Assembly (NCBI GenBank): GCA_017645655.1
Contig: JAGCNZ010000014.1
Span: 21,479-85,478, forward strand
Direction of reading: 5' to 3'
Length of the DNA: 64,000 nucleotides
Source of the DNA: Bacteroidaceae bacterium
GTDB lineage: Bacteria > Bacteroidota > Bacteroidia > Bacteroidales > Bacteroidaceae
The notes under the pieces: generated by a model
What the model was told of the DNA's origin: nothing
Seen by the model: only the letters and a program-made list of their open reading frames with translations
The model's database searches: none
Made by a program: the position numbers and the translations under genes
Shown: positions 2,416 through 57,093 of the stretch, in pieces
How positions within the stretch are numbered: position 1 is the first letter of the stretch
Layout: each line of letters begins with the position of its first letter

Positions 2416-2552
2416 CACAGCGAGTCAGCAAGCACGGCACGTCGTGTTTGAAAATGACCCACGTGATAAATCAATTTTACCCACGTGATATTTGAAATAT
2501 TACACGTGATATTTTCATTTTACCCACGTGATAATTTCATTTTACCCGCGTG
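2416..2552 (-). repeat. CACGTG array 1 (minus orientation)
   Basis: Boxes start at 2547 (CGCGTG), 2525, 2503, 2482 and 2460 (all CACGTG) and 2438 (CACGTC), with a doubtful one at 2416. The steps are 22, 22, 21, 22 and 22 bases. Read on the minus strand, the 22-bp spacers are of the GGTAAAATGAAATTAT type, and the single 15-base spacer is TAATATTTCAAATAT. The array fills the gap between two convergent genes. Confidence 0.88.
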
Positions 2553-2582
2553 ACGTTTTCCGACATGCCCTGTTGAGTCGCC

Positions 2583-4901
2583 CTACGGCCTCAGCACCTT
2601 GTACGCTTTTCCATTGTCCCGAATGATGTAGAGACGGGCTCCATCACCGTTCCGCTCCTGGGAAAGCGCATCAGACGGCACTTTCCGACCGCTGAGGTCA
2701 TAGACAGAAAGGCCTCCGCCGGCAGTAGGCGAGACCTGTTGCGGCGTCCCGATTCCGGTCGGCACGGTGTACTCCTTAACATACACGGCTGCCCCCTTCA
2801 GTCCTCCACGAAGGTCGACGACGACAGTCCAGCGAGTGCCATCACCCAACAAACGGCTGGACTGACGCTTGTAGATATGCCCGTCGGCGTGTCCCGAATA
2901 ACCCTTGCCCAGGGCGAACAGGCTGCTGCCCAGGGTCCCGTCGTACACGAGGTAACGCTCCGCAGTGGTCTTGCCCGAGAACAACACCGAGAGGTCGCTC
3001 GTCAGGGAAAAGCCGAGACTGAGCGACTTGTCGTTTACCTGCTCGCCGACAGTAAAGGTGAATTGGAAGACGCTGTCTTGCATCTCGGCCATCGCAATGG
3101 CATTCTCGGGCAGCGTAGCCTGGCTCGGATAGTAGAAGACGCGCCCCACGCTGTTGGCCGGACCGCAGACGAACAGGGAAGCCTCCTCGTCGCTCTGCAC
3201 CAGGGGATGTGCCAGCAAAGTACGCGCCACCTTGTCAATCTCCACTACATACTTGCCGCTCATGGGCAGGAAGGTCAGCGAATGGTCGGCATCGTCGTAC
3301 CAAAAGAAATCCGGAGCAACGTGCCACTGTTCCGGATTGTCAATGAAGTTCTGTGTAAGGCAAACCGATTGCTCCACATCTATCGTGCCACGATAACACC
3401 CCAACTGCTTCGTGGACAGCAGAGAATTGCTGCCTAATCGGACATCGTCCTCTGCCTCGCCGCCAAGCACGACCGTGACTATACTCTTGGCAGGCAGGGT
3501 GAAACGGGCATAAGGGGCTGAGCCGGCACCCATCGACATCTGCAAGCCGGAGCTTCCCTGGTTGATGAGTACGGCACCATAACTGCCGTCGGGATTCAGG
3601 AAAGCCACACAACTCACGTCCGAACCCACGCCAGCAATGCTGCTCTCAATGCGTTTGGCACCCGGCTGAGCTGCCAGGCTGGCATGCGCCATCACGAAGT
3701 AATGGGAATTGTAGCTGAGGGTGTGGTAGTCGTTTTGGTCGATATCCACGGCTCCGTAGCACGTTTGGCAACCACCGTCAAGGTTAGGTCCCATGTTGAG
3801 GTCCAGCATGAAATTCCAAACCATCACAGCCTTGCTCTGCCGCGTGACGGTATTGTAGACCAGATTCATCATGTCGGCAAGCAGTCGCGACGAGAGGTTG
3901 CGGCCATCGTTCCACGTGCCGATACTCGTCTCGGTGAAGATAATCTCCTTGTCCGGCGCTTTCTGATAAATGTCGTCGAGTTCCGTGACACTGCCCCCAT
4001 AGTCGTGCCAAGCACTGCCCACCACGAGGTCCTTGCCGTCCATATTGGGGTCGAGAGCATCGTAGAAGTTGATGGGATAGTCCTGCTGGTCAGAGATGTT
4101 GTCGTAGTTATAGTTATGGTCGAAGCAATATATCTTGGTGTGAATGCCAGCGTGGGCAAAGGCGGGAGCAAGTTTGTTGATGAATGCCGCCTCTTCCGAC
4201 CAGGGCATATAGAGGCTGGCGCAGTTGCCGCGATTGAGAGGCTCGTTCTGCGGCGTGACAGCATAAATGGGAATTCCCTCGGCAGCAAAGGCCTGAACGA
4301 AGCGCACAAAGTACTGCGCATAGGTTTCATAATGGTCAGGATTGAGCGAACCACTCGTCCAGGAATCATAGGCAACACGATTCGACAGACTCTTCACCTT
4401 CATCCACTTGGGACAAGTCCACGGCGAGCCGATAATCTTCAAGTCCGGATTGATGGCGAGAATCTCCTTGAGAATGGGGATGACATACTGCGTCTCGTCA
4501 TTATGAAGACGGAAATTCTCCAGTCCCGGCGTGTCGCAAAGCGAATACTCGGTGCTCGAGAAGTCAGAGCAACCGATACTGATGCGGACATAACTGACGC
4601 CGTAACCCCTGGTACGGGAAAAGGTGCGAGTCAAGAAGGCACGTCTGTCGGCAGGAGCCATCTGCATGAGATTGTAGGAAGCGCTGTATGTGATGGCATA
4701 CCCGAAACCGTCCATCTCCTGATAGGTCGTGGCAGGTTGCAGCGTGACATGTCTCGAAAGCTTGGTGCGCAAGCTTTGTGCCGTCGAGTACTCCATTTTC
4801 TTATTGCCGTCGGCAGTCGTCGTGTAGATTCGCACCTGCTCGGCAAAAAGCGGGAACGAAAGGAAGCAAAGGAGAATGCTGGATAGGATGCGATGTGACA
4901 T
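2583..4901 (-). CDS. Secreted glycoside hydrolase family 30 with C-terminal sorting tail
   Basis: A 772-residue exported enzyme. A signal peptide (about 1-20, ending LFAEQ) precedes a GH30-type (beta/alpha)8 barrel opening with TTYQEMDGFGYAITYSAS. The likely acid/base glutamate is in AVTPQNEPLNRG (about 219) and the nucleophile in IIFTETSIGTW (about 321); PWTCPKWMK is also typical. After the barrel and its beta-sandwich comes a domain of about 200 residues that I do not recognise. The last 45 residues (GLSVYDLSGRKV, then LYIIRDNGKAYKVL) resemble a type-A T9SS sorting signal, so the enzyme is probably secreted or surface-bound. Beta-glucosidic or beta-xylosidic substrates are usual for GH30; the exact one is not determinable. 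Its stop adjoins CACGTG array 1. Confidence 0.87.
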   Translation of the reverse strand: MSHRILSSILLCFLSFPLFAEQVRIYTTTADGNKKMEYSTAQSLRTKLSRHVTLQPATTYQEMDGFGYAITYSASYNLMQMAPADRRAFLTRTFSRTRGYGVSYVRISIGCSDFSSTEYSLCDTPGLENFRLHNDETQYVIPILKEILAINPDLKIIGSPWTCPKWMKVKSLSNRVAYDSWTSGSLNPDHYETYAQYFVRFVQAFAAEGIPIYAVTPQNEPLNRGNCASLYMPWSEEAAFINKLAPAFAHAGIHTKIYCFDHNYNYDNISDQQDYPINFYDALDPNMDGKDLVVGSAWHDYGGSVTELDDIYQKAPDKEIIFTETSIGTWNDGRNLSSRLLADMMNLVYNTVTRQSKAVMVWNFMLDLNMGPNLDGGCQTCYGAVDIDQNDYHTLSYNSHYFVMAHASLAAQPGAKRIESSIAGVGSDVSCVAFLNPDGSYGAVLINQGSSGLQMSMGAGSAPYARFTLPAKSIVTVVLGGEAEDDVRLGSNSLLSTKQLGCYRGTIDVEQSVCLTQNFIDNPEQWHVAPDFFWYDDADHSLTFLPMSGKYVVEIDKVARTLLAHPLVQSDEEASLFVCGPANSVGRVFYYPSQATLPENAIAMAEMQDSVFQFTFTVGEQVNDKSLSLGFSLTSDLSVLFSGKTTAERYLVYDGTLGSSLFALGKGYSGHADGHIYKRQSSRLLGDGTRWTVVVDLRGGLKGAAVYVKEYTVPTGIGTPQQVSPTAGGGLSVYDLSGRKVPSDALSQERNGDGARLYIIRDNGKAYKVLRP

Positions 4902-4907
4902 GATGAG

Positions 4908-6550: not shown

Positions 6551-8203
6551 TTAGTTGACGCCTGAATTGCTGGATGACAGGCTGGTGTAGCCCTTCTTGG
6601 TGGCTTTGAGGTTGCCGAAGAAATAGTAGTACGGATAGTATCCTTTGTACTTAGGGAAGAGCTCGTAGGCATGTCCGGGACGGTCCTTCATGTATGGTTG
6701 TGTGGCTTGCAGGAAGGATTGCAGCTGCGGCTGGCGATAGTTGAAGCCTGAGAAATGCTGCATGAGTCCCGGATTTTTGTTTTCTGCGAGCATGATGCCG
6801 TCCATGATGATGCTTGGCGGGGTTGTGCCCACAAGGGGTTCCAGGCGCTCTACGAACTGCGGCATGAGTTTCGTGTAGAGGCACACGCACAGGCTGTTGA
6901 TGAGTGCATTGCGGCTGCGTCCCTCGACGAGCATAAGGTTGTAGCCCATGAAGAGTGGTTGCTGATACTGATTCTCGAAGCTGTCGTGGATGGGTTCGGT
7001 CAGGCGGATGAGTGCCATCTCACGGTCGGCTTCTATCAGGTCGTTGCGTCGCACCATTGGGCCATACTTCTTGACGAATGCTCCTTCGAATGGCACACGG
7101 CGGAGGAGGGCAAGATATTTCTCGGCGAGCGCCCATTCGTTGCGCATCAGGGCACACTTGACTTGCAGTTTCAGGAGGCGACTTGTGGGGCCGCCCATCA
7201 CCATCTGCTCCATGCAGGCATGTTGCGAGGATTCGAGGAAGCCGCCATAGTAGTTGCCTTCGGGCACATAGAGGATGCTTGCATTGTTGTGCTCTCCGTC
7301 TACACCATGGACGTGGAGGGAATCGTAGTCAAGCCTGATGTCGTACAGGCGCTCGCCCACCTGGTCTGTCTGCACGAGTGCGATGGCGTAGGCGCATGCC
7401 ATCGGGCGGTTGCTCATAGTGGCATTTGCCCGTGCCAGCTTTTGAATGCCGACCCAGTCCTGCTTGTACTCCATGTCCATGAGGCGGCAGATGACGCGTA
7501 CATACGGGCGCTGCCACTGGTCGAAACCGATGATGGCTGCCATCGCGGCGACGATGACGAGCAGTTGCAGGCGGTTCTGCCATGGTGTCTCGTCTTGAGG
7601 AACACGAATGAAGGCGGGTGCCGGTTTCTTGCTAAAGCTGCGAATGATGACAGCCCAGATGCAGAGCACGTCCAGCGCGAGGAGGGGTATGCCGAAGATG
7701 AAGCCGGTGCGTGCCTCGACGAAGATGTCGAGACCGTGCCACGTGACGACGGCCATGTAGAAGAGCGCCGGCAGGTACTGGATGGCTCGCCATGCCGGAC
7801 GGAGCCTCATGCAGTAGCCCGTCAGCCAGCTGCCGGCGGTAAGAATCAGCGCCATGAACAGTCCGCCCAGCCACGGGTACTGATAGAGTTGCAGCATCGC
7901 CCTGCCGATATAGCGGAGGAAGCCGTAGGGCTGGGACAGGACGAACTCCATGATGCGGAGGTCTGCCACCCAGAAGCTGTATTCGCGGCTGACGTGGAAG
8001 ACGCTGCCATAGTACCATGCTGCCCAGAGCCAAGTCAGGGCAAAGAAGACGACGTGTACCGGCACCTTCGCCGCAGCAAGCCGCAAGCCGGAGCCCGATG
8101 CCTTGGGATGCCCTTCAGCACCTGCCCTCCGGTTTCGCCTTTGCGGAGAAACAGCCGGTTTCTGCACATCTTTACGAGGTTGTGGAGATGGTTTCTTGCT
8201 CAT
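6551..8203 (-). CDS. Membrane protein with large soluble domain (DUF6057-like)
   Basis: About 550 residues if translation starts at the ATG giving MSKKPSPQPRK. An upstream ATG at 8275 would add 24 residues, but those codons run into CACGTG array 2 and look non-coding. A basic, proline-rich leader (about 1-45) is followed by four or five hydrophobic spans (roughly 48-200), such as VHVVFFALTWLWAAWYYGSV. A helical soluble part of about 330 residues follows, with TPR-like spacing (MRNEWALAEKYLALLRRVPF). From memory it resembles Bacteroidota proteins labelled DUF6057, often found beside a propeller lipoprotein as here. The function is unknown. An inner-membrane location is inferred from the spans. 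Confidence 0.7.
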   Translation of the reverse strand: MSKKPSPQPRKDVQKPAVSPQRRNRRAGAEGHPKASGSGLRLAAAKVPVHVVFFALTWLWAAWYYGSVFHVSREYSFWVADLRIMEFVLSQPYGFLRYIGRAMLQLYQYPWLGGLFMALILTAGSWLTGYCMRLRPAWRAIQYLPALFYMAVVTWHGLDIFVEARTGFIFGIPLLALDVLCIWAVIIRSFSKKPAPAFIRVPQDETPWQNRLQLLVIVAAMAAIIGFDQWQRPYVRVICRLMDMEYKQDWVGIQKLARANATMSNRPMACAYAIALVQTDQVGERLYDIRLDYDSLHVHGVDGEHNNASILYVPEGNYYGGFLESSQHACMEQMVMGGPTSRLLKLQVKCALMRNEWALAEKYLALLRRVPFEGAFVKKYGPMVRRNDLIEADREMALIRLTEPIHDSFENQYQQPLFMGYNLMLVEGRSRNALINSLCVCLYTKLMPQFVERLEPLVGTTPPSIIMDGIMLAENKNPGLMQHFSGFNYRQPQLQSFLQATQPYMKDRPGHAYELFPKYKGYYPYYYFFGNLKATKKGYTSLSSSNSGVN

Positions 8204-8250: not shown

Positions 8251-8387
8251 GACGTGGGGTGATGCAAAACATCACGTGGGTTGATTGAAATTATCACGTG
8301 GGTAAAATGAAATTATTACGTGGAATATTTAAAATATCACGTGGGTAAAATGAAATTATTACGTGGGTCATTCGAAATCATCACCTG
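8251..8387 (+). repeat. CACGTG array 2 (plus orientation)
   Basis: Boxes start at 8251 (GACGTG), 8273, 8295, 8317 (TACGTG), 8338, 8360 (TACGTG) and 8382 (CACCTG). The steps are 22, 22, 22, 21, 22 and 22. The last five boxes show the standard 22-21-22-22 core. The array lies between the end of the M60 gene and the start of the membrane-protein gene, both on the minus strand. Confidence 0.88.
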
Positions 8388-8407: not shown

Positions 8408-11400
8408 CTATTTCACGAGCATCTTCTTGCCGCCCACGATGTAGAGACCCTTTGCGGGCTTGCTCACACGCTGGCCTGCGACGTTGTAGATGCCGCCGGC
8501 ATTTCGCTTGTCAGACTTTCCTTGAACCGCCTCGATGCCGTTGGGGTCATCCCAGACATAGGTGAAGGGGGAGATTCCCTCGGCGAAGACTAACGACGTA
8601 CCATTGTATATGTAGCCGCTCTCCGTTTCGCAGAAGGTGCCGGCGAGTATGGTCCTGCCATTCTCGGCGATGCTGACTGCGTCCTGGAAAACGACCGGTT
8701 GGCCTGCCAGGAACGTCTCGGGAGTGACGTCGACTATGCAGCCATCCGTCAGAATGCCGGTGCCCGCCCAAGTGTCGAACGGCAAGCGGAGAGCCTGAAC
8801 GCCCTCGCCGCTCTTGGTGAACGTGAGGCTCGTGGCTGTGAAGTCCATCGGATTGAAGAACTTCCTGTCGCCATCGATGACAATCGACTGGGCAACACTG
8901 TCGGGACCAACCACGTTGACGTATGCCAGAAGCTCCTCCGTTGGCATTCTCTTAGAGGTCTGACCGGGCTTGACGATAGCGATGGAGTTGACCGGAAGCG
9001 GGCTGATCTCGCTCTTGCCCGCAGTGCCCGTGCCGTAGTAATACACCACGTGAGGCGTCGGATCACCCTCGTAGTACACCGTCATCTCGCCACGATAGAG
9101 CGCCGAACCATAGGGAACAAGCACCTCATAGCCGTTCGCCTCGCAAGCATATATCTTAAAGCCACCCTGCACCTTCGCCTGAACATTCGTCGGGAAAGAG
9201 AAACTGTTCTTGTTCGACAAGTAAACCAAGTTGCCGTCATTGTCGTAAACCTTGTATCCAATGGCTCCCGAACCCATTACCTTGTAGGTAGTCTTGCCGC
9301 TGCTGGTGCTCGTGGTGTAGTAGTAACCATTCGTCTGGTACTCGTCCACAAAGTCACTCCACTGCCCGACATCAGCATAGCCGATAGCCACCTCACCGTC
9401 GTCGTACGCCACACGGTTGGAACCTTTGGGCTTACCCTCCAGCGGACCGTCGAAGATGGCAGGCGACGGCTTGATGCGGTCGTCGATAAAGCAGATGCTC
9501 GGGGCTTTCGGATACTGATGCATATAAGCCTTCGCCTCGTCGATGTCCTGCTGAGTAGTGGTCACCCAATACTCGCCGTAGTCGCCCACAAAGTACTTGT
9601 CGTAAGGAACAAACATGCCGTTCACCTCGAAGAGCTCGCTCAAGTCAAGCTGAGCAGCATCGCACATCTTCTTCGCCATATGCAGATAGTCGGTCTTGCC
9701 ATAAGTGATTCTGCCACCCACGACACCCTCAGCATTCTCCAGACTAGCATCGTATGGGCCTGTACGCTTCTGTATGGGATCCTGACGCAGCATCTTAAAA
9801 AGCGTAGGATAAAAGGCAGGGTTGTGTCCCTGAACGTGGAAGTAAAGGTAAAGCTGGAAGTAGAAACGAGTCTGCTCCCATATGTCCATGCCAAACCATC
9901 CCTTGCCCTGAGCAAAGTCCTCAAGCGTCTTGGTAACCGTAGTGCCACGCGTCGTCGTCACACCTTGCAGGAAGACATTGGCGTTGGAGAACAGGTTGTT
10001 GCTCACCTCGGTAGCCCCCACGATGTTGAAGCATGCCTGATGGTTGTGCCCAATCTCGTGCGAAGGACCCCATATGGCACCCCCGCTCGACGTCATCGTA
10101 TTGTAGTTCATCACGGTGGAAATGGTGCCGTCACTATAGTAGGTGCCGTACGTCGTAGAATACATGTAGCCGTGATTGACGGAAAAGGCATTCCAAATAT
10201 TGCGGAAACGCCCCTGCAAGTCCTCCTTGAACCCCATGAGGTCTTCCTCCAGGTCAACGAAGTTGCTCCACACACGCAGCAGACCTTCCACCTCTCCTGT
10301 CTTGCCGATGGCACTCTTCACCAGGTTGGTAAGCATTGCAAAGACAACGCGCTCGCACTTTAGGTTGACGGTGTTGCTCTTGTTGAGCAGCTTCTCATAG
10401 AGGAGCGTCCAGTCCTGATTGGTCATGCCGCGAGTATAGTCGAAGTAGCCTTGCAGCTGTCCGCCCTCGATATGTATCTTAGCCGCAGGATAGTCGGCAA
10501 GGTACTTCTCAGGGTCATTGAGCTGATAGAAGATGTACAGCGTGCTTGGCTGACTCATTAGCACAGCATTGAGACCAGCATGAAGATTTGTCGTTGTCCC
10601 AGTAGGATGGTCGCCCGGGCTTTCGGTGTCAATCACGACCTCAGCCTGCAAAGTGCAGTCTGCGTTGGGCTCCTCGTCTACATAAATATAGATTATGTCC
10701 CCGGTGTCTCCCACGATGCCCGTCGGCCCTGAGAGTTTACCGAAAGCATTGCTCATGCCGGCATATTCGTTCCACGACATCTTCTGGTTGTTACTGTAGA
10801 CAAAGTAATCGTCTCGAACGCGGAAGAACTTTTCGAAGCCTTCCCTCGTGTAGCCCGTCGAGGCAGTAAAGCTTTCCCACGTGTCGTTCTTAACCTTCAG
10901 GACCATCGCCTTCATGTTGTCATTCAAGGCAGCAAAGTCGGCGTTCCCGGCCAAGGCCTCATCCGTGAGAGCCTGTATCTCGTCCTTGAGCACAGTGCAT
11001 GCCTTGTCCTGGAACAGGTTGGCGAGAGCAGCCTTATATGTGTTGAGGTTCTGCATCAAGTCGTTATATGCAGTGAGCTTGGAGCGCTCTTCAGCAATGA
11101 AGCCTTCGTCGAGCTCTGCTTCCTCGAATCCCCACACACTATTTTCGTTGTTGGTGTACCAACCTACGACACTGTTGCCTGCGTCGCAATGCAAGCCAAC
11201 GTTATTAGCGTCGACGATGTAATAAGTCACAGTTGTTGCGTCGGCAGTGCGCTGGAGCGTGAAGCCCTTAGACGGTTTGTTCAGTTGCGTGCGGTACGGC
11301 GTGCTGTATGCGCCGTTCTGCAAGGTGACATAACGTTGCGTGCACATGTTCTGCAAGATGCTCGTGCTGCCTGTTCCTGCGACGAGAGTCCAGTACTGAG

Positions 11401-12550
11401 CAAGCTTGCCGGCATCTTTTCCTTCACATGAGATGATGTTTGAGGCGAAGTTCTCGGTGATGTAGTTCGACTTGTTGACGTTCTTGATGCGATAGTACTT
11501 GCCGACAACCGGCTCGCTCAATCCGCTTAAGGCAAACAGGTTGTCCTCCACCTCCTGCAATGTGTAGTTCTCTGCCAGGGTGATGCTCCAATCGGAACCT
11601 TGGTCGCCTTGACACGCCCACTTGTACAGGGTTGTGCCGTCGCCGTTGAGGTTCAGACACACATTGCCCGAGAAGCTTTCATTCTCGGAGAGATTGATGA
11701 AGGCATCGTTGGTACCGTTGTTGGGGCTGAACTGAATGTAGATTGTGTTGGCGGTGGCAGATGGCGAGCGGAAGTTGTCGTCATCGTTCAGGTATCGACC
11801 CGTGCTTGCATTGCGAAGCGTGTAGCCGTTGCCAGCCTTCGTGATGAGCCAAACCTGTGCCAGGGTATTGTCGTTCTTGGCAGCGCCCTCAGTGTTGGTA
11901 CCGTTGTCAGCGAGGCGCACGTTGGTACTGCGGCGGCTTGTGAGGCGAACGATGTTCTTGCTGCTGAGCACATAATTGACGTATGCTCTGCCGGTGAGGT
12001 TGCCTAAGTCGGAGAACGTGATGGTTCGGAAAGCCCAGTCACGGTCGCCTCCTTGACTGCCGACACCCGATGCACCAATCAACGAACCGTTGTTGTTCTG
12101 CAGATAATAGCGGTCCATGCTGCGCAACGACCAGTGCCCTGCCGCGTCGAACTGCGCGATGGTGTAGAAATACTTGTCTGCCACGGTGGCATTGGTGCCG
12201 TTGTTCTTGCTTGGAGTCACGTTGCAGTAGTAGTTGCCCAGGCCCGACTTGAGGAAGTACTGGCCGTCCGTCCCCGTCTCTTCGAGCTGGACGAGATAGC
12301 CGAGGCTGGACTCTGCATCTGCTCCGTTGGGAGTAGATGTTGAGACGCCGAGCGTATTGCCTTCGCCCTCGAGGGTGAAAGCGGTGGTCGATGCGTTGTA
12401 GAGGACATACCACTGCCCCGTCTGGAGTGTGGTGGCAGCGCTGCCCACATTGATGATTTTACCTGCGAATTCGCTTGTCTGTGCCCAGGCGGAAGTAGTG
12501 CCGAGCAGTGCGATAAGTGACGCTAAAAGCAATCTGATCTGGTTTCTCAT
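8408..12550 (-). CDS. Secreted M60-family (enhancin/mucinase-type) metalloprotease
   Basis: A 1380-residue exported protein with a signal peptide (about 1-23, ending SAWAQ). The catalytic zinc motif HEIGH is in AIWGPSHEIGHNHQ (about residue 828), followed by the ATEVSNNLFSNANVF helix; both are hallmarks of peptidase M60, a family acting on mucin-type glycoproteins. The first 480 residues hold at least two similar segments with WYVLYN and YTLRNASTGRYL wording that may be lectin-like beta-trefoil domains (inference). The C-terminus (GGIYNVAGQRVSKPAKGLYI, then GGKKMLVK) looks like a type-A T9SS sorting tail, so the enzyme is probably released or displayed on the surface. It is the largest closed gene of the window, and a weak TATCTTTG element lies upstream at 12590-12597. 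Confidence 0.88.
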   Translation of the reverse strand: MRNQIRLLLASLIALLGTTSAWAQTSEFAGKIINVGSAATTLQTGQWYVLYNASTTAFTLEGEGNTLGVSTSTPNGADAESSLGYLVQLEETGTDGQYFLKSGLGNYYCNVTPSKNNGTNATVADKYFYTIAQFDAAGHWSLRSMDRYYLQNNNGSLIGASGVGSQGGDRDWAFRTITFSDLGNLTGRAYVNYVLSSKNIVRLTSRRSTNVRLADNGTNTEGAAKNDNTLAQVWLITKAGNGYTLRNASTGRYLNDDDNFRSPSATANTIYIQFSPNNGTNDAFINLSENESFSGNVCLNLNGDGTTLYKWACQGDQGSDWSITLAENYTLQEVEDNLFALSGLSEPVVGKYYRIKNVNKSNYITENFASNIISCEGKDAGKLAQYWTLVAGTGSTSILQNMCTQRYVTLQNGAYSTPYRTQLNKPSKGFTLQRTADATTVTYYIVDANNVGLHCDAGNSVVGWYTNNENSVWGFEEAELDEGFIAEERSKLTAYNDLMQNLNTYKAALANLFQDKACTVLKDEIQALTDEALAGNADFAALNDNMKAMVLKVKNDTWESFTASTGYTREGFEKFFRVRDDYFVYSNNQKMSWNEYAGMSNAFGKLSGPTGIVGDTGDIIYIYVDEEPNADCTLQAEVVIDTESPGDHPTGTTTNLHAGLNAVLMSQPSTLYIFYQLNDPEKYLADYPAAKIHIEGGQLQGYFDYTRGMTNQDWTLLYEKLLNKSNTVNLKCERVVFAMLTNLVKSAIGKTGEVEGLLRVWSNFVDLEEDLMGFKEDLQGRFRNIWNAFSVNHGYMYSTTYGTYYSDGTISTVMNYNTMTSSGGAIWGPSHEIGHNHQACFNIVGATEVSNNLFSNANVFLQGVTTTRGTTVTKTLEDFAQGKGWFGMDIWEQTRFYFQLYLYFHVQGHNPAFYPTLFKMLRQDPIQKRTGPYDASLENAEGVVGGRITYGKTDYLHMAKKMCDAAQLDLSELFEVNGMFVPYDKYFVGDYGEYWVTTTQQDIDEAKAYMHQYPKAPSICFIDDRIKPSPAIFDGPLEGKPKGSNRVAYDDGEVAIGYADVGQWSDFVDEYQTNGYYYTTSTSSGKTTYKVMGSGAIGYKVYDNDGNLVYLSNKNSFSFPTNVQAKVQGGFKIYACEANGYEVLVPYGSALYRGEMTVYYEGDPTPHVVYYYGTGTAGKSEISPLPVNSIAIVKPGQTSKRMPTEELLAYVNVVGPDSVAQSIVIDGDRKFFNPMDFTATSLTFTKSGEGVQALRLPFDTWAGTGILTDGCIVDVTPETFLAGQPVVFQDAVSIAENGRTILAGTFCETESGYIYNGTSLVFAEGISPFTYVWDDPNGIEAVQGKSDKRNAGGIYNVAGQRVSKPAKGLYIVGGKKMLVK

Positions 12551-13954: not shown

Positions 13955-14047
13955 AACGTGTGATAATTGAAAATATCACGTGTAATAATTAAAATATTAC
14001 GTGTGAAAATTGCAAACATCACGTGTTACATTTTCATTTATCACAGG
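13955..14047 (+). repeat. CACGTG array 3 (plus orientation, more diverged)
   Basis: Boxes start at 13955 (AACGTG), 13977, 13998 (TACGTG), 14020 and 14042 (CACAGG), with steps of 22, 21, 22 and 22. The spacers differ most here (for example TGATAATTGAAAATAT), yet the spacing is exactly that of the other arrays. It stands upstream of both divergent genes. Confidence 0.85.
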
Positions 14048-23657: not shown

Positions 23658-23770
23658 CACGTGAGGTCTGAATTTTACCCACGTGATAATTTCATTTTAC
23701 CCACGTAATATTTGAAATATTACACGTGATATTTGAAATTTAACCACGTTACGATTGAGGACATCGCGTG
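23658..23770 (-). repeat. CACGTG array 4 (minus orientation)
   Basis: Boxes start at 23658, 23680, 23702 (CACGTA), 23723 and 23745 (CACGTT), with a weaker CGCGTG near 23765. On the minus strand the core from 23745 back to 23658 has steps of 22, 21, 22 and 22. It sits between two convergent transcription units. Confidence 0.87.
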
Positions 23771-35326: not shown

Positions 35327-36863
35327 TCACTTAACCAAGACCTTTCTTGTTGTTCCGTTGGAGTGGCGGATGATATTGATGCCCTTGACATACGTCGACC
35401 TTTGGTTCTGCGGAGTGCTTATTTGGCGGCCATGAATGTCATAGCGGGCAGTCTCAGCCGTTGCCTCTGATGCCTTGACTTCCTCGATGGCGTCTATTTC
35501 GTCTTGTGTCATACCAACAATTGTGCCGAAGCCGCTCCAGGGCGCTGTCGTCTGGTATTGTTCCAGAGATGCTGCAGGCACATGAAGTGTGGCAGACGAA
35601 ATGGGACTATATATAAACGCATTAGAATATGTAGTGGGAATATCTTCTGCCAAGCAATAGACATCGGCCAATTTATAGCAGAAAGCAAAGGCAAAGTCAT
35701 AGATGCTGGTCACAGTGCTGGGGAGAATGACGGAGGTCATTTCAGAACAATTATAGAGGGTTCCTCTGCTGATGCTGGTCAAACTTTCAGGGAAGGTAAA
35801 GGAAGTCAGACCACACGCACGAAAAGCATAATCGCCGATAGTGGTCACGCTTTCTGGGATAGAGATGGAAGTCAGTTGGCTGCAATAATAAAATGCCTCA
35901 GTTGCTATGCTGGTCACAGTGCCGGGAATGTAGGTTCTCTTGCAGCCTGCAACCAAAGAGTTCGTAGCAGTCTCTATGATTGCATTACAATTGTTGCGCG
36001 AATCATAGACATGGTTCCCTTCATCCACATTTACAGAGGTCAATTCATTACAAGCCGATAAAAGCCCTACACCAATGCTTGTCACGTTTTTGGGAATAGT
36101 TATGGTAGTCAGGCCGCAACCCCAGAAAGTATAGTCTCCGATACTGGTCACACCTTCTGGAATAGAAACGGATACCAGATTCGAGCATCTGCTAAAAGCA
36201 TTGTTTCCGATGCTGGTCACACCACTTCCGATGGTGATGGAGGTCAGGTTGTAACACCCAGAGAAGGCCTCTTCGGCAATACCAGTCACACCGCTGGGAA
36301 TTTCTGTATTCGCACAACCCGCAACCAAGGTGTTTGTAGCAGTTTCTATAATTGCGTTACAATTATTGCGCGAATCATAGATGGTGTTTCCTTCGTCCAC
36401 AGTTATTGAGGACAGGGCATAGCAAAATGTGAAAGCACCTATGCTGATGCTGGTCACAGTGCTGGGGATGGTAATGGAGGTCAGGGCGAAACATTCAAAA
36501 AAAAGCACCATTGCAGATACTAATCATGCCTTCTGGAATAGTGATGGAGGTCAGACTTCTGCAACCAGAGAAGGCCTCTTCTCTGATGCTGGTCACGCTT
36601 CCAGGAATAGAGACGGAAGTCAACTTGTTGCAAATAAAGAAAGCACCTTCGCCGATGCTGGTCACAGGGTATGTCTTGCCGCCATGGTTTATCGACGGTG
36701 GTATTACGACTGAACCGGAATAAGAGTTGAAGTCATCGTCACGATAAGTCACGGTTGCCCCGTCTTCCGATATGTTGTAATAGATGCCGTCAACTTCGGC
36801 ATCATAGGCGCTTGCCAACACGGGCAGCAGCGACACAAGAATGAGTAAAAGTTTACGAATCAT
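35327..36863 (-). pseudogene. BspA-like leucine-rich-repeat surface protein, split by a T8-tract frameshift
   Basis: The first frame (36863 to 36495) encodes a signal peptide (ending VLASA) and the start of a BspA/LRR_5 array, ending [12 protein letters not shown]-stop. The second frame (from about 36511 to 35327) continues at [19 protein letters not shown] and runs through about ten more LRR units. It ends in a sorting tail (YDIHGRQIST, then GINIIRHSNG and KVLVK). The two frames meet at eight consecutive T on the coding strand (plus strand A8 at 36497-36504). Seven T would restore one frame of about 511 residues. Such proteins mediate attachment at the cell surface. The tract length suggests slipped-strand phase variation, but a decayed gene or a sequencing error gives the same picture. 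Confidence 0.8.
36497..36504 (-). repeat. T8 homopolymer at the frameshift of the BspA-like gene
   Basis: Eight A on the plus strand equal eight T in the coding strand. With eight the frame reads GCT TTT TTT TGA (stop); with seven it reads GCT TTT TTT GAA and joins the two halves. Confidence 0.85.
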
Positions 36864-41209: not shown

Positions 41210-41291
41210 ATAATTCATAATTCGTAATTCATAATTCATAATAATTGCCACAAGAAGGAAAAATATAGAATTAGAATTGTGAATTATGAAT
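41210..41291. repeat. AT-rich ATTCATAATTC repeats between pyrB and the PBP gene
   Basis: The AATTCATAATTC word is repeated at 41210-41240 and appears inverted at 41268-41291. It is the same word as in the long hairpin before tatC. The inverted part overlaps the promoter of the PBP gene. Confidence 0.55.
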
Positions 41292-41307
41292 TAAAGTCGT
41301 ACCTTTG
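41277..41307 (+). promoter_or_regulatory. Promoter of the penicillin-binding protein gene
   Basis: TTGT at 41277-41280 and TACCTTTG at 41300-41307 with a 19-base spacer. Transcription would begin near 41314, just before the ATGs at 41321 and 41330. Confidence 0.62.
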
Positions 41308-41320
41308 TAGTCTTAAAACT

Positions 41321-43675
41321 ATGTTTTCGATGAGAAAGAAGGTTTTCCGCATCCTTTGGACGTGCTTCATATTGGGAGTCCTTGCCTTGGGCATCATCTT
41401 CAGTTGCATCTTTACAGGCGTCATCGGCTATATGCCCGACATTCAGCAACTGCAGAATCCCGTCAACAAGTTCGCCACGCAGGTCTTCTCTGCTGACGGC
41501 AAACAGCTCGGCACGTGGAGCTACAGCAGTGCCAACCGTGTCTTTGCCGACTTCAACGAACTGCCTCCGGCACTGGTGCAAGCACTCATCGCGACAGAGG
41601 ACGTGCGCTTCTACGAGCACAGCGGCATCGATTTCATGGCCTTGATGCGTGCCGTCGTGAAACGCGGTGTGCTCGGCCAGAAGAGTGCAGGCGGCGGAAG
41701 CACCATCACACAACAGCTCGCGAAGCAGCTTTACTCCGAGAAAGCAGCATCGACGATGGAGCGTGTCCTGCAAAAGCCAATCGAGTGGGTTATTGCACTA
41801 AAGCTGGAGCGATTCTATACGAAGGAGGAGATAATTGTCATGTACTTCAACTATTTCGACTTCCTTCACAACGCCGTGGGCATTAAGACGGCTGCCCAAA
41901 CATACTTCAGCAAGGAACCCGCAGCGCTCGACACATGTCAATGCGCTTTGCTTGTCGGCATGTGCAAGAACCCAAGTTACTTCAATCCCGTGCGTCGCCC
42001 GGAACGTTGCATCGACCGTCGCAATACGGTGCTGATGCAGATGGAAAAAGCCGGATTCCTTACCGAAGAGCAGCGCGAAGAGTTGCGCGAACGACCGCTC
42101 GGGCTCAACTTCCATCGTGTCAGCCACAAGGAGGGGCATGCCACCTATCTGCGCGACTACCTCCGACAGATTCTGATGGCAAAGAAGCCTGTACGAAGCG
42201 ACTATGCATCGTGGCAACACCAGAAGTACTACGAGGACTCGCTGGCTTGGGAGCAAGACCCCATCTACGGTTGGTGCAACAAGAACTACAATCGGGAGGG
42301 GCGTCCCTACAATATCTACACAGACGGCCTGAAGGTCTATACGACCATCGACAGCCGCATGCAGGAGTATGCCGAGCAAGCTGTGGACAAGCACGTCACC
42401 GGCGAATTGCAGCCGCTCTTCGACAAGGAACAGCGCGGCAACCGCAATGCGCCATATGCCTCTGCCATTTCTTCCGACAAGGCTAAGGCAGACCTTGCCC
42501 GAGCGAAGCGTCAGAGCCCGCGCTACACTGAGATGAAGAAAGCCGGACACACCGACGAGGAAATAGAAAAGGCCTTCAATACGCCTATTGAGATGGTTGT
42601 CTACACGACGAAGGGCGACAAGGATACCGTGATGACTCCGCTCGACAGCATACGCTACTACAAGTCCTTCCTGCGGACGGGCTTCATGTGCATGGACTCC
42701 GAGACGGGTCACGTGAAGGCTTACGTGGGCGGCGTCGACTACAATCACTTCCAGTATGACATGTGTACGCTCGGCAAGAACCAAGTCGGTTCTACCATCA
42801 AGCCTTACCTCTATTCCTTGGCTATGGAGAGCGGATGGTCGCCCTGCGATGTCGCTCCGAACGAGCAACGCACCTATTACGTCCCGGGAAGCGGCAATTG
42901 GACGCCGCGCAACGGCAGCCGCGCTCGCTATGGCGAGATGGTGACGCTGAAGTGGGGGTTGGCAACGAGTAACAACTGGATATCCGCTTATCTGCTGAGC
43001 CAGCTAAGTCCCGACCTGTTCGTCAAGCTTTTGCACGACTTTGGCATACTGAATCAGGACATCCACGCTTCCCTCTCCCTCTGCCTCGGTCCGTGCGACA
43101 TCTCGCTTGCCGAGATGGTCGGAGCGTATTCCGCTTTCCCGCAAAAAGGCGTACGTCGCAATCCGCTCTACGTGACGCGCATCGAGGACGGCGACGGAAA
43201 CGTGCTGGCACAGTTCCAGTCGAGAGTGAAGGAGGTGATATCCGAAGAGTCGGCCTACAAGATGATTATCATGATGAAGGGCGTCATCGACAGCGGCACC
43301 GGACAGCGAATGCGCAACCGCTACCACATCACGGCGCCGATGGCGGGCAAGACGGGAACGACCAACGACAACAGCGACGGCTGGTTCGTAGGCTATACGC
43401 CACGGCTTTGCTACGGCGCATGGGTTGGCGGTGACGAGCACGACATCCATTTTGCCAGCATGGCATACGGCCAGGGCGCTAACTCGGCACTGCCCATCGC
43501 TGCCTATTTCCTCCAGAAAGTCTATGCCGACAACCGTCTCGGCTACACTCAGTCGGAAGACTTCGACATTCCCTCCGGCTTTGATCCCTGCGGATACACA
43601 TTAGGCGGGGACGACGAGAGCGAAGAAGAGGTAGAGGAAGAAAGCGGCTTCGACATCGGGGATCTTTTTGAATAA
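41321..43675 (+). CDS. Class A penicillin-binding protein (transglycosylase/transpeptidase)
   Basis: The ATG at 41321 (MFSMRKKVFRI) is chosen because the frame upstream overlaps the promoter; 41330 is also possible. The product is about 784 residues. A membrane anchor (about 10-32) precedes the GT51 glycosyltransferase domain with ATEDVRFYEHSGIDF (about 89-103) and GGGSTITQQLAKQLY (about 124-138). The transpeptidase domain has the catalytic serine in KNQVGSTIKPYLYS (about 490), SNN in TSNNWISAY and KTG in MAGKTGTTND (about 670). It ends in an acidic tail. It polymerises and cross-links peptidoglycan in the periplasm. It is divergent from pyrB. Confidence 0.93.
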   Translation: MFSMRKKVFRILWTCFILGVLALGIIFSCIFTGVIGYMPDIQQLQNPVNKFATQVFSADGKQLGTWSYSSANRVFADFNELPPALVQALIATEDVRFYEHSGIDFMALMRAVVKRGVLGQKSAGGGSTITQQLAKQLYSEKAASTMERVLQKPIEWVIALKLERFYTKEEIIVMYFNYFDFLHNAVGIKTAAQTYFSKEPAALDTCQCALLVGMCKNPSYFNPVRRPERCIDRRNTVLMQMEKAGFLTEEQREELRERPLGLNFHRVSHKEGHATYLRDYLRQILMAKKPVRSDYASWQHQKYYEDSLAWEQDPIYGWCNKNYNREGRPYNIYTDGLKVYTTIDSRMQEYAEQAVDKHVTGELQPLFDKEQRGNRNAPYASAISSDKAKADLARAKRQSPRYTEMKKAGHTDEEIEKAFNTPIEMVVYTTKGDKDTVMTPLDSIRYYKSFLRTGFMCMDSETGHVKAYVGGVDYNHFQYDMCTLGKNQVGSTIKPYLYSLAMESGWSPCDVAPNEQRTYYVPGSGNWTPRNGSRARYGEMVTLKWGLATSNNWISAYLLSQLSPDLFVKLLHDFGILNQDIHASLSLCLGPCDISLAEMVGAYSAFPQKGVRRNPLYVTRIEDGDGNVLAQFQSRVKEVISEESAYKMIIMMKGVIDSGTGQRMRNRYHITAPMAGKTGTTNDNSDGWFVGYTPRLCYGAWVGGDEHDIHFASMAYGQGANSALPIAAYFLQKVYADNRLGYTQSEDFDIPSGFDPCGYTLGGDDESEEEVEEESGFDIGDLFE

Positions 43676-43830: not shown

Positions 43831-43860
43831 TTGCAGGATGAATAAATTGTCGTACCTTTG
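43831..43860 (+). promoter_or_regulatory. Promoter with no following open frame
   Basis: TTGC at 43831-43834 and TACCTTTG at 43853-43860, spaced 18 bases, form a good Bacteroidota promoter. The first ATG downstream is followed two codons later by TAA, so the transcript is probably non-coding. Confidence 0.6.
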
Positions 43861-43866
43861 CAGTGC

Positions 43867-44004
43867 AAAAAGGAAGTAAAACTATCCAACATGTCATAAT
43901 TAGATAGTTTGAAATCTCAGGTAGAAGATTTGTTTGAAGGTTAATAATAGTTGTTAGTTTTAGTTTTTGGAGAAGCAATCCGTGAGGACCGCTTCTTTTT
44001 TTTT
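43867..44004 (+). ncRNA. Candidate small non-coding RNA
   Basis: A transcript of about 138 nt is predicted from the promoter to a terminator. A 5' hairpin AAACTATC/GATAGTTT is present around 43878-43911. The AT-rich middle carries no usable reading frame. The 3' end has the stem GAAGC/GCTTC followed by nine or ten T. I do not recognise it as 6S RNA, SRP RNA or RNase P RNA. Expression is untested; it could be the relic of a leader. Confidence 0.45.
43969..44004 (+). terminator. Intrinsic terminator of the candidate small RNA
   Basis: GGAGAAGC pairs with GCTTC, with an inner CC-GTGA-GG helix, and a run of about nine T follows immediately. Confidence 0.7.
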
Positions 44005-44112: not shown

Positions 44113-44205
44113 CACGTGGGTAAAATCAAATTATCACGTGTAATATTTCAAATATCACGTGGGTAAAATGAATTTATCACGTGGGTAAAATGAATTTATC
44201 ACGTG
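44113..44205 (+). repeat. CACGTG array 5 (plus orientation, best conserved)
   Basis: Five perfect CACGTG boxes start at 44113, 44135, 44156, 44178 and 44200, with steps of 22, 21, 22 and 22. The spacers are GGTAAAATCAAATTAT, TAATATTTCAAATAT and twice GGTAAAATGAATTTAT. The outer flanks GCAAACAT (left) and ATGTTTGC (right) are inverted copies of each other, giving the element terminal inverted repeats. Confidence 0.92.
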
Positions 44206-44338: not shown

Positions 44339-45940
44339 TTACTCTTCTGCTTCAGCGTCGTCGACAACCGGTTCCTCCTCTTCAGGGAAGACGGGAACAT
44401 AGTTCCTGACGTTATACATACGCAGCATAGCCTCCGAGGGGTTCATGTCGTCGTATGTTGCATTGTACCTTGGCGGAGTGTAGCCACCCAGATTCTCCTT
44501 CTTGTATTGCGCCATTTGTGCGCCGGGGAAGACAAAGCGGAAGTCAATCAACCTCAGCTTCTGGTGGTCATTAGGAATCTTCAGTTTACCGTCGGTACGG
44601 TTGCTGACAGAAGATCCGGCAGGTTCGTTACCCCAAGGATTACGCATCACGAAGAGACAGTCGTCTGCATCGGTAGCCTTCATCACCGTGAAGGCATGAC
44701 CTGTGACGCTCTCCAATTCACCCATCATGACACCGCTCTCGTGGAAACCACCCACGCAAATCATGCCGTTGTCCAGAGCGTACTCAGCCACCATCGGGTA
44801 TTCGGCATTGTAGAGCCTGTCGCCCCAATCGAAGCTGAAGCTGTCGCCATTGCCCGTAAAGGGAGGAGCAGCGTGCTCAGTACCGATGCCCCCAATCTTG
44901 TTGCAATGGAAGCATGACTCCCACTTCATGAGCGCCTTTTCCAGAATCGTTGCCCAGTCATACTTGCTGTTCTTACCGGCAACCTGGAAGATGTCGCCCG
45001 AACTGTTTGCGAACACCTTGTTATCGACGACAACGTCAACAGGGTTACCCTTCGGATCGAACATATGCACAGTATAATTATTGCCGTCCTTCTCGATGAT
45101 GGACTTAATCCACATGGGGTAGTTATAAGCAAATGAAGCCAAGACAGCGCACATGCAGCAATTGCCGATACCGTGCTGGTTGACGTCGGCAGGCGAGGGA
45201 GAAGAGGTCATGGGATACAGGGTAATCGTCGCCGCACGCCACGTTCTGTTACTGCCACTTATCTCGAGCCAATTTTCGTCAGGCTGGTTGTCGGGATTCG
45301 CAAGCCACGCCTTATCATCATCAGTAGCGGCACGGTAACTTTCGAAGTGTTTGCCCATAGGAGTAGAGTTAGAATGTGACGAACCTCCCTTGATGTCTGC
45401 GTTCCACACATCCTCTCCCGTTGCGTACTGCTGACGGCTGAGATAATTGCTGCTGGAGGGTTTCGTGGCAGCTATCGCAGCGGCCTTCGTCTTATAGAAA
45501 TAATACTTTGTGGTGCCATTCTGAAGCACGAGAACCTCGCCATCATTAGCGTATATTACGTAGGTAGTTGCCGCCGAGCCACCATTCAGATGAGCTTTTA
45601 TTGCCGTGCCTGGCACGGGACCAGCCTCATCGTATTCAAGCGTATAGACAGATTCGGAGTATTTCTTCATCCATCGCATCCTGCTGGCAGTGAAGACAAG
45701 CATCTCCTCGCCATTGGAGTTGGATGTGCTACTACTCGCGACCTTCCAGCCAAGATACCAGATTCCGTCAATCTCGTTTTCTCCTGCACTCTGCACAATC
45801 TCCATGTAATTGATGTTGTCCAAAGTGATGGTGCTCATCGTTCTGTCCTTGTGAATGATGTCCAGTCGTTGCTGAGCCGATGCGACTGAGCAGATAGCCA
45901 GCATCAGAATTGCTGAGCTAAAGAGTCGTTTTGCATTCAT
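44339..45940 (-). CDS. Secreted calpain-like cysteine protease (family C2 type)
   Basis: A 533-residue protein with a signal peptide (about 1-22, ending SVASAQ). The first 230 residues show an unrecognised domain beginning IIHKDRTMSTITLDNINYM. The catalytic core follows: cysteine in NQHGIGNCCMCAVLASFAYN (about 258), histidine in SVTGHAFTVMKA (about 414) and asparagine in FVMRNPWGNEPAG (about 434), the Cys-His-Asn order of calpains. Porphyromonas Tpr is a known bacterial relative. The tail is acidic (EEEEPVVDDAEAEE) and no T9SS signal is evident. A calcium requirement cannot be judged. It has a good promoter of its own. Confidence 0.82.
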   Translation of the reverse strand: MNAKRLFSSAILMLAICSVASAQQRLDIIHKDRTMSTITLDNINYMEIVQSAGENEIDGIWYLGWKVASSSTSNSNGEEMLVFTASRMRWMKKYSESVYTLEYDEAGPVPGTAIKAHLNGGSAATTYVIYANDGEVLVLQNGTTKYYFYKTKAAAIAATKPSSSNYLSRQQYATGEDVWNADIKGGSSHSNSTPMGKHFESYRAATDDDKAWLANPDNQPDENWLEISGSNRTWRAATITLYPMTSSPSPADVNQHGIGNCCMCAVLASFAYNYPMWIKSIIEKDGNNYTVHMFDPKGNPVDVVVDNKVFANSSGDIFQVAGKNSKYDWATILEKALMKWESCFHCNKIGGIGTEHAAPPFTGNGDSFSFDWGDRLYNAEYPMVAEYALDNGMICVGGFHESGVMMGELESVTGHAFTVMKATDADDCLFVMRNPWGNEPAGSSVSNRTDGKLKIPNDHQKLRLIDFRFVFPGAQMAQYKKENLGGYTPPRYNATYDDMNPSEAMLRMYNVRNYVPVFPEEEEPVVDDAEAEE

Positions 45941-49318: not shown

Positions 49319-49384
49319 CTGAATCATCATGATGGTTCAATTGAACGTTCATGATGATTCAATTGAACCATCATGAACGTTCAA
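49319..49384. repeat. Three tandem 22-bp palindromes, copy B
   Basis: Three units of TTGAA-N3-TCATGA-N3-TTCAA; the first begins C instead of T. The sequence differs from copy A (34967-35032) at few positions, and several of the changes preserve the palindrome (for example AACGTTCATGATGATT). Confidence 0.88.
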
Positions 49385-49559: not shown

Positions 49560-49695
49560 CTCCGGCTTGCCGCTTGAGTGAAACGAAAGTCCGGCTTTGC
49601 CGCCTGAGCATCTGCTGAAAGCAGAGCGCAAGAAGCTTTAGCTCGACAAAAGTCAACCCTCGCGAGGGTGAAATCCTCGGAGGGCGAAACGTTAG

Positions 49696-50096
49696 TGGAG
49701 CTGGAGGGGATTGAACCCTCGTCCAAACAGGGACGTCCTGTGCTTTCTACACGCTTATTCCAGCCTTCGTTTTCGAGCGCCGGCAAGACCTGGACCACCA
49801 ACCGTCGCCTTAGTTTCTAAGAGCTTCGCCACGGGATAGAAACGTCTCCCACGGCTAATTCCGATTTTTTAGCACCGCTGTATCAAACGCTTCGGAACAA
49901 CAGCTTTTGAGCGATGTCTCGTCTCAGCACCTGGTGCCGAGATAAGGCCAGTAGTCTACTGTGCTTCGACTAGGCAGCGAGAGCGTAGTTGTTTGCGCCA
50001 ATTAAATTGTCGGAAGTCAGAGATTATAGAGAGGGACAACCAGCTCTCTGCGTGCTTACACAACACCTCGACCTGCTGTCAAATCCAGTCAGCCCC
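49696..50096 (-). ncRNA. ssrA: Transfer-messenger RNA (tmRNA)
   Basis: The 5' end GGGGCTGACTGGATTTGACA (50096 downward) and the 3' end, GGGTTCAATCCCCTCCAGCT followed by CCA, form the tRNA-like half; GGGGCUG pairs with CAGCUCC as acceptor stem. The encoded tag reading frame lies at 49999-49970: GGC GCA AAC AAC TAC GCT CTC GCT GCC TAG, giving GANNYALAA and stop. The length is about 401 nt. The genomic base after the discriminator is not CCA, so CCA must be added. tmRNA rescues stalled ribosomes with SmpB. Confidence 0.96.
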
Positions 50097-55791: not shown

Positions 55792-55821
55792 AATGGTTAT
55801 GGACTTTGCTTTATTTGCTTG

Positions 55822-55921: not shown

Positions 55922-55953
55922 TTTGCAGGTTTCAAAGGAAAATCGTAACTTTG
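55922..55953 (+). promoter_or_regulatory. Promoter of the GH43-type gene
   Basis: TTTG at 55922-55925 and TAACTTTG at 55946-55953 with a 20-base spacer, divergent from the GH31 operon promoter 70 bases away. Confidence 0.65.
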
Positions 55954-55989
55954 CGGGGCTTTATATAATATAATAAGGTATATAGGAAC

Positions 55990-56985
55990 ATGTTTCGGAC
56001 TATCTCTCTCTTGCTGACGTTTCTGTGGTCGATTGCATCGATGACGCAGAACATTACTGGGCAAAGCCCGACGGCAGTCAACCCTGTCTGGCCGCGCGAC
56101 TGGCCCGACCCGACCGTTTGGCTCGGCGAAGACGGCCGCTACCATTGCCTTGCCACCAATCCGACGCGTTCCCTTGTCTCCGACGACCTGTTCCACTGGG
56201 AGATGAGCAACGTGTCGCCCATCGACGTTGGGTCGTGGGGAAAGATGCAAGCCATTGCCCAACGCTTCTGGGCTCCCGACGTGGCAACCCTGCCGAACGG
56301 CAAGAGGAACCTCTACCTCACGCTCTACAACAGCGCCGAGGACAGCAATATCGGAGTCCTGCAGGAGTATGCGCCGGGGCAGTTCCAGTTCGTCGGCATC
56401 ATTACCAGCAGCCTGACCACGGGCATTCACGACACGATAGACCCAGAGGTGGTGACCGATCCCAAGACGGGCAAAGTGTGGCTCTTCTTCGGCTCGGTGG
56501 GCGGCATACATCGCATCGAACTCAACAAGGACGGACTATCCCTGAAGGAGGGGGCGACCTATGAGCACGTGGCGGGCCTCAAGGTGGAGGACAATCCCAG
56601 CCGCTCCAGGGTGTTCGAGGGCTCGTACCTGCACCGGCACGGCAAGTACTGGTACCTCTTCGTCAGTTCCGGCTTCTTCGGAGACCACACCTACCAGCTG
56701 AAAGTGGGTCGTGCAAAGAAGCTGACCGACGACTTCTTCGACCGTGACGGACGTCCCATGAAGGAAGGATATGCCACGACGGTGCTCCACAGCGACGAGG
56801 GCGACAAGTTCTACGGGCCCGGACACTGTGGCGAGATATTCAAGGCAAAAGACGGAGGCGAGTATATCTTCTACCATTGTCACGTGGCGGGAAGCAGGAG
56901 GCCGGGCAGCCGACCACTCTTCATCTCCCCCATCAAATGGGATAAAGAGGACTGGCCATACATGGAAGGAGGCAAACCTCAGTAG
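55990..56985 (+). CDS. Exported glycoside hydrolase family 43-type protein
   Basis: A 331-residue protein with a probable signal peptide (MFRTISLLLTFLWSIASM). The five-bladed propeller of GH43/GH62-type enzymes is suggested by PRDWPDPTVWLGEDGRYHCL (Asp in blade 1, about 38), HDTIDPEVVTDPKTGKVWLF (second Asp, about 145) and SRVFEGSYLHRHGKYWYLF (Glu, about 215). These fit the catalytic triad of arabinanases and xylosidases. It is divergent from the GH31 operon and followed by CACGTG array 6. The stop is 16 bases before the first box. Confidence 0.83.
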   Translation: MFRTISLLLTFLWSIASMTQNITGQSPTAVNPVWPRDWPDPTVWLGEDGRYHCLATNPTRSLVSDDLFHWEMSNVSPIDVGSWGKMQAIAQRFWAPDVATLPNGKRNLYLTLYNSAEDSNIGVLQEYAPGQFQFVGIITSSLTTGIHDTIDPEVVTDPKTGKVWLFFGSVGGIHRIELNKDGLSLKEGATYEHVAGLKVEDNPSRSRVFEGSYLHRHGKYWYLFVSSGFFGDHTYQLKVGRAKKLTDDFFDRDGRPMKEGYATTVLHSDEGDKFYGPGHCGEIFKAKDGGEYIFYHCHVAGSRRPGSRPLFISPIKWDKEDWPYMEGGKPQ

Positions 56986-57000
56986 GGCATCGGCAAACGT

Positions 57001-57093
57001 CACGTGGGTAAAATCAAATTATCACGTGTTAAAAATAAAATATTACGTGGGTAAAATGAATTTATCACGTGGGTAAAATGAAAACATCACGTG
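57001..57093 (+). repeat. CACGTG array 6 (plus orientation)
   Basis: Boxes start at 57001, 57023, 57044 (TACGTG), 57066 and 57088, with steps of 22, 21, 22 and 22. The left flank GCAAACGT and right flank ACGTTTTC are inverted copies with one change. The array lies between two co-oriented genes. Confidence 0.9.

Follow-up and report, generated by a model that had tools for sequence, protein, structure and literature searches.

Intergenic arrays of 22-bp repeats in a Bacteroidaceae genus: candidate operators for HU-HIG proteins

We analyzed a stretch of 64,000 nucleotides from a Bacteroidaceae bacterium (the window; positions 21479 to 85478 of contig C90 in source genome G000, which comprises 2.74 Mb in 130 contigs and is 84% complete), in which six intergenic arrays repeat the hexamer CACGTG at steps of about 22 bp. 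Sequence comparison marks these arrays, and arrays of other units in related species, as probable tandem operators for HU-HIG proteins, the candidate binders, at one unit per 22 bp and with autoregulation of the HU-HIG genes. One HU-HIG unit, most likely a homodimer, would sit on every 22 bp of an array; because 22 bp is approximately two helical turns, neighboring units would lie on one face of the DNA, able to touch. HU-HIG is Pfam family PF18291 ("HU domain fused to wHTH, Ig, or Glycine-rich motif"), an HU/IHF-like group usually represented by several paralogs per genome. Canonical HU, the textbook DNA-packing protein, binds DNA with little sequence preference; array-adjacent proteins match PF18291, the HU-HIG clade of the HU/IHF superfamily, whose paralogs, by contrast, go with distinct 22-bp repeats.

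Arrays upstream of HU-HIG genes

A 22-step array (lag-22 identity ≥28/44) is present within the 450 bp before the HU domain of 29 of 62 HU-HIG genes, compared with 0 to 2 genes for any other step from 13 to 35; these arrays precede 22 of 39 genes in the window's genus and 7 of 23 outside it. The set combines 41 genes, locus L031, and 20 short upstream stretches from genomes G075, G027, G025, and G024. By a stricter measure, repeat islands lying ≤400 bp upstream, 15 of the 41 HU-HIG genes scored positive versus 50 of 801 ordinary genes taken from these genomes (p ~1e-8, with HU-HIG paralogs not statistically independent); the first 20 HU-HIG genes yielded nine upstream islands and one downstream, the second 21 yielded six and three.

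Several of these arrays belong to the families that dominate their genomes. The dominant CACGTG array of G000 stands ~247 bp before L205, a 153-aa HU-HIG gene on C112 (70.4 bits). CCGCRYGCGG, the commonest array of G075 and G027, occurs before HU-HIG genes L252 (G075) and L259 (G027), as predicted beforehand, and the GCACCACG family occurs before HU-HIG gene L261 in G025, also as predicted; the GGTTAACC family predicted for G024 did not appear at any of its three HU-HIG genes that were fetched. In G000, G075, G027, and G025, then, a HU-HIG gene is preceded by whichever family is commonest in the stretches read. More generally, upstream units resemble the arrays of their own genome (summed score of 1023; over 5000 label shuffles, the mean was 559 and the highest value 874). 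Within a single genome, paralogs differ in their upstream units, which is our best argument that these proteins would bind at their own genes rather than answer to one common regulator.

A second set was taken from matches in plasmid and phage collections, 10 of 32 being opened before any array search: Phocaeicola massiliensis (2), Parabacteroides distasonis (1), Bacteroides finegoldii (5), and Bacteroides sp. CACC 737 (1), all filed as plasmids, and one phage-labelled scaffold. A 22-step array lies 56 to 138 bp before the match in 7 of 10; other lags and downstream sequence gave 0 of 10 each. The HU-HIG gene on the phage-labelled scaffold, L274, has a weak upstream 22-step signal (26/44), and a viral contig collection scanned with one HU-HIG protein gave no match.

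All nine array-adjacent proteins that were scanned match PF18291, at 54.8 to 128.2 bits against a cutoff of 26.2; seven cover most of the model and two cover positions 45 to 124. The nearest solved sequence to L205 is Escherichia coli HU-alpha, with a marginal E of 0.067. Among the papers retrieved for HU-HIG, titles and abstract openings revealed none on this protein. On G027 C24, G075 C1, G035 C27, and G024 C31, a further short HU-like reading frame (88 to 105 aa) lies ~380 to 460 bp from the HU-HIG match.

Phyletic distribution also favors HU-HIG. In G000 and in 20 of 22 congeners, HU-HIG matched strongly (best E <1e-12, reaching 7e-27); G007 and G009 yielded only weak matches. Among 14 other-family genomes in the same search, only G047 had a strong match, and G047 was the only other-family genome then showing 22-bp islands (three in 130 kb). 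Across the order, best E was <1e-15 in 20 of 149 genomes, G000 included. Eight HU-HIG-rich genomes outside the genus were picked by HU-HIG count and contig size alone; 22-step islands were present in G225 (three), G168 (one), G243 (one), and G197 (two, weak), with 0 or 1 at other lags. With G047 included, islands occur in 5 of the 9 HU-HIG-rich genomes from outside the genus and in 0 of 17 HU-HIG-poor genomes, the latter amounting to 507 kb of readable sequence, two further sampled genomes reading only N (Fisher's exact test, 0.002, or 0.008 without counting G197). The first-pass annotation had proposed a protein-binding site as one of two readings of the arrays; its nucleoid or regulatory form gains support here, and HU-HIG emerged as a candidate family.

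Several observations weigh against HU-HIG proteins as the binders. At the threshold used, 33 of the 62 genes have no upstream array, and upstream arrays were found at 0 of 6 genes in G047, which has both features, 0 of 2 in G259, and 1 of 4 in G008; at four loci (L223, L233, L234, and L235) the array is downstream instead. The 40 to 60 kb sampled from each of the HU-HIG-rich genomes G059, G179, G202, and G259 contained no array, and the figure of 0 of 17 HU-HIG-poor genomes includes several sampled with only 4 to 9 kb. L205 was picked with its nearby array already known. The own genome ranks first for 10 of 24 upstream arrays (one tie) and does not for 14; among these 14 mismatches are all arrays of G225, G168, G243, G017, and G024, whose own sets hold just one to three arrays. 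Finally, the main family of G000 is directional, with an asymmetric box, and lacks an 11-bp dyad autocorrelation peak, so the dimer picture rests on other array families.

Some other protein might bind the arrays, HU-HIG genes being merely among its targets. Arrays do lie near ordinary genes as well (79 of 801 have one downstream, besides those with one upstream), and the fact that only about half of HU-HIG genes have an array would fit. We nevertheless consider this unlikely, because paralogs of one genome differ in their units and several of these units correspond to distinct genome-wide families, and because the arrays of G059, G179, and G202 adjoin HU-HIG genes, with none in 140 kb elsewhere.

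Number, spacing, and sequence of the arrays

All six arrays reported by the first-pass annotation were recovered. They score 83.4, 75.0, 74.6, 70.0, 66.2, and 50.5 bits by a 71-bp four-box core model built partly from these same arrays; the lowest score is that of the diverged array near 13955 to 14025. Single CACGTG boxes are present 32 times in the window versus 20.4 ± 4.7 in shuffled sequence; because this excess is modest (2 of 100 shuffles reach 32), spacing rather than the single box is the main evidence. CACGTG-N16-CACGTG occurs 390 times in G000, its reversed control pattern once. Throughout 411 kb of G000 (the window plus 346.8 kb of further sequence), distances between CACGTG pairs cluster at 21, 22, 43, 44, 65, and 87, and a chain search identified 43 arrays; spacing is thus not random outside the original six. 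If the density of this sample is even, ~290 arrays are expected in G000; a sequence-only core model gave at least 173 matches there at E ≤ 0.001, partial matches included (135 of 1308 candidates scored).

The spacing had been described as a fixed 22-21-22-22. Its 22-21-22 portion, spanning four boxes, is constant, but beyond it a variable number of further 22-steps extends to either side. Exactly one 21-step is present in 39 of 43 arrays, two in 3, and none in 1; some arrays include a 20-step as well, as in the final step of the one at 23658 to 23770, and the fifth box of the 13955 array is very weak.

In 38 copies the 71-bp core can be aligned without a gap (one of 39 centered arrays, L033:15927, was excluded), at a mean column identity of 91%. 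Thirty columns are invariant, compared with 2.2 expected from evenly spread changes, a count in which box columns are favored because arrays were chosen by their boxes; by our own count, 14 of the 30 fall in spacers, where specific bases are also conserved within the CACGTG family. The box itself is asymmetric in the G000 family and is not read as a symmetric palindrome: of 241 boxes, 39 begin with a base other than C and 2 end with one other than G. In 40 congener arrays, dyad autocorrelation reached 0.124 ± 0.022 at 11 bp (control, −0.02), with peaks at 11 and 22 among 20 lags, and units often hold a pair of dyads separated by 11 bp; when unit consensuses were tested for symmetry, most congeners showed a moderate excess, and G000 and G016 little. 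G+C periodicity is strongest at 22 bp in G000 arrays and at 7.3 bp in congeners, and weaker at 11 bp; the strong congener power at 7.33 bp (the third harmonic of the 22-bp step) is perhaps due to the CCGC family.

Outward from the core, box information declines from ~1.8 bits to 0.9 to 1.0 and then to 0.3 to 0.45, with no sharp end. This gradual decay, together with identical neighboring units within arrays, suggests that arrays grew by duplicating units from a conserved core. Previously noted "terminal inverted flanks" proved to be half units of adjacent, more degenerate repeats (GTTT..AAAC between boxes). We found no defined terminal inverted repeats, a feature of miniature inverted-repeat transposable elements (MITEs), and no conserved leader or tail up to 80 bp from the center in 39 aligned arrays.

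These properties bear on whether the arrays are functionless selfish minisatellites or MITE-like repeats, tolerated at gene ends. Several families per genome, identical adjacent units, and insertion-tolerant positions are what such repeats would show; their strongly uneven conservation, lack of defined ends, single fixed step across the families seen, and placement upstream of HU-HIG genes make the idea very unlikely. A search for the tyrosine transposase (Y1_Tnp; RAYT) associated with repetitive extragenic palindromic (REP) sequences gave no match in the 84% complete G000 and some match in 6 of 22 congeners, 2 of them strong. Our probing for a transposon family consisted of this Y1 search and the inspection of ends, and neither Y1 nor defined ends were found in G000; with many positions also kept between species as sequence changes (see below), the earlier suggestion of a nonautonomous mobile element finds no support.

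Two kinds of known repeat invite comparison. Enterobacterial REP sequences and bacterial interspersed mosaic elements (BIMEs) are dispersed extragenic palindromic repeats, some of them gyrase bound (PMC3733652, PMC6379681). The 22-bp arrays are likewise dispersed, extragenic, palindromic repeats, but differ in their fixed 22-bp step, in the replacement of unit sequence at kept positions, and in that no RAYT was found in G000. BrickBuilt, a minisatellite/MITE of Porphyromonas gingivalis, has a 23-nt repeat in one family of 19 copies with leader and tail segments (PMC4596501); both occur in Bacteroidales as tandem repeats between genes, with similar unit lengths, but our unit is 22 bp and showed no conserved leader or tail.

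Placement between genes and turnover between species

Using genes called by a simple heuristic coding-score caller, we assigned 41 of the 43 G000 arrays to a junction: 10 of 34 convergent, 4 of 37 divergent, and 27 of 108 codirectional junctions have one, where the junctions counted are gaps of ≥60 bp or bear an array (another 118 narrow codirectional junctions are array-free by definition). Arrays lie a median of 50 bp from 3′ ends and 152 bp from 5′ ends, and in 21 of 27 codirectional junctions the array lies closer to the 3′ end of the upstream gene. Array orientation and gene direction show no link: of 27 arrays in codirectional junctions, 13 point the same way as the genes. In congeners, 49 of 51 islands are intergenic, and 22 of 46 classified ones are convergent. 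Arrays in the window are listed in Table 1.

Table 1. 22-bp repeat arrays in the window, their genetic context, and related arrays
Feature	Position	Strand	Context or description	Related arrays
CACGTG array	2438–2552	−	Convergent: metallo-beta-lactamase-fold gene 1751–2389 (+)/GH30-like gene 2583–4901 (−)	Same junction: arrays with other units in G075, G008; none found in G035
CACGTG array	8251–8387	+	Between gene 6551–8065 (−) and 3′ end of M60 peptidase gene 8408–12550 (−)	Same junction: array in G075; none found in G035, G008, G024 (G024 lacks gene 8408–12550 there)
Diverged CACGTG array	13955–14047	+	Divergent junction; 50.5 bits by core model	Same junction: arrays in G035, G075, G024
CACGTG array	23658–23770	−	Convergent junction	Same junction: arrays in G035, G075, G024; G012 below threshold
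Second array family of G000	34967–35032		22-bp units with dyads TTCAATTGAA and ATCATGAT	Unit of same kind as array before HU-HIG gene L208
CACGTG array, five perfect boxes	44113–44205	+	Convergent: penicillin-binding-protein gene 41279–43675 (+)/calpain-like gene 44339–45940 (−)	After same penicillin-binding-protein gene: 22-step repeats with different units in G075, G008, G035, G012, G024, G027
CAATTG/CATGATG 22-bp family, second copy	49320–49384		22-bp units	
CACGTG array	57001–57093	+	Begins 15 bp past stop codon of gene 56041–56985 (+)	Same junction: array also in G027

Proximity to 3′ ends raises the question of whether the arrays act in RNA, as mRNA 3′-end hairpins or terminators. Both strands of 39 arrays fold better than shuffled sequence (mean z, −3.2 and −3.3), and 28 of 47 array-bearing gene ends have no intrinsic terminator-like site of their own in a strict scan. 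That scan found terminator-like sites at 19 of 47 array ends and 24 of 93 array-free ends, a looser scan of convergent pairs gave 20 of 20 and 20 of 30, and the two scans disagree. In the G000 family no covariation stands out about any axis, array orientation is independent of the genes, and the 44113 array already lies between two intrinsic terminator-like sites, one on each side; we therefore give an RNA-level role only a slim chance. Least likely of all are gyrase wrapping sites acting as BIMEs: position at gene ends would suit, as would array length and mean half-step (~10.8 to 11 bp), which resemble the 10.75-bp periodic arms of a 130-bp gyrase motif (PMC6379681), but the G+C signal is weaker at 11 bp than at 22 bp (G000) or 7.3 bp (congeners), and the HU-HIG link and family-specific units would be left unexplained.

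The only Rfam family above its gathering score in the window is tmRNA, with no match at the arrays; the tmRNA gene (49693 to 50096, minus strand) is ~300 bp from a 22-bp array. Past the penicillin-binding-protein gene, positions 43850 to 43970 end in a terminator-like hairpin and T run and are conserved in several congeners, perhaps as a small RNA gene. Positions 35327 to 36863 contain reading frames with many 69- to 70-bp repeats, which resemble BspA leucine-rich repeats.

The 22-bp step extends through the genus. In a lag scan of stretches from seven congeners, the leading repeat step is 22 (G016 shows a tie with 24); with Tandem Repeats Finder, period 22 was detected in 7 of 7 congeners and nowhere in 268 kb from 20 other-family genomes; twenty further congeners, at 20 kb each, yielded 11 lag-22 islands in seven genomes, compared with 0 to 2 at other lags. 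Of 139 genus genomes, 55 contain the exact pair CACGTG-N16-CACGTG, in up to 72 copies outside G000. Several array families with differing unit sequences often coexist in one congener genome. At junctions orthologous to those of the window, the relative has an array in 15 of 23 cases where G000 has one versus 1 of 26 where it does not (Fisher's exact test, 5e-6, for cases that share ancestry and so are not independent); junction (26,27), counted as an array, is a low-complexity false positive, without whose three cells the first figure becomes 15 of 20. Congener families retain the 22-bp step despite differing units, which supports the earlier suggestion of selection on geometry.

A four-box pattern scan of a genome contig collection, which possibly left out the source genome itself, found two unrelated contigs only. 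Metagenome-assembled contigs labelled Tabrizicola (L026, 1 to 180) and Gemmatimonadetes (L027, 3490 to 3640) have tandem CACGTG at 21/22-bp steps with other spacers. Literature searches, judged by titles and abstract openings, brought up no description of these arrays.

Proposed function and significance

Returning to HU-HIG proteins as the likely binders, we suggest that each paralog has its own unit sequence and that the array often found before its own gene would serve autoregulation. In the window's genus, a paralog may be able to spread its arrays to tens or hundreds of sites between transcription units. A dispersed array, once coated, may serve as a boundary or nucleoid anchor; we put this candidate role forward tentatively, as suggested by the position of arrays at the ends of transcription units. 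If a paralog changed its specificity, or another paralog took over, units would be replaced genome-wide while positions and the 22-bp step stayed. Plasmid iterons and ParR/parC-type centromeres offer a partial precedent: they are direct repeats at a fixed step of one or two turns, with cooperative binding and autoregulation. Unlike these, the arrays described here number in the hundreds and are chromosomal; the Rep3 initiator domain that an iteron reading called for was not found in G000 and is present in 6 of 30 congeners.

Taken further, HU-like proteins may have diversified into mutually exclusive, sequence-specific chromosome coaters, each with its own 22-bp repeat and self-control, that take over from one another via hundreds of fixed intergenic sites; species would then differ in the "language" of their boundaries, not in the ruler. 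We regard this broader scenario as plausible, though at somewhat less than even odds.

If HU-HIG proteins do read the 22-bp arrays, a sizeable, apparently little-studied group of "HU family DNA-binding proteins" would at once acquire a target site, a regulatory circuit, and a role open to testing. HU-HIG is found also in Bacteroides, Phocaeicola, and Parabacteroides records. An array before a HU-HIG gene would be a ready prediction of that paralog's specificity, and the genus would constitute a natural experiment in which a DNA-binding protein and its hundreds of sites change together as positions remain unchanged.

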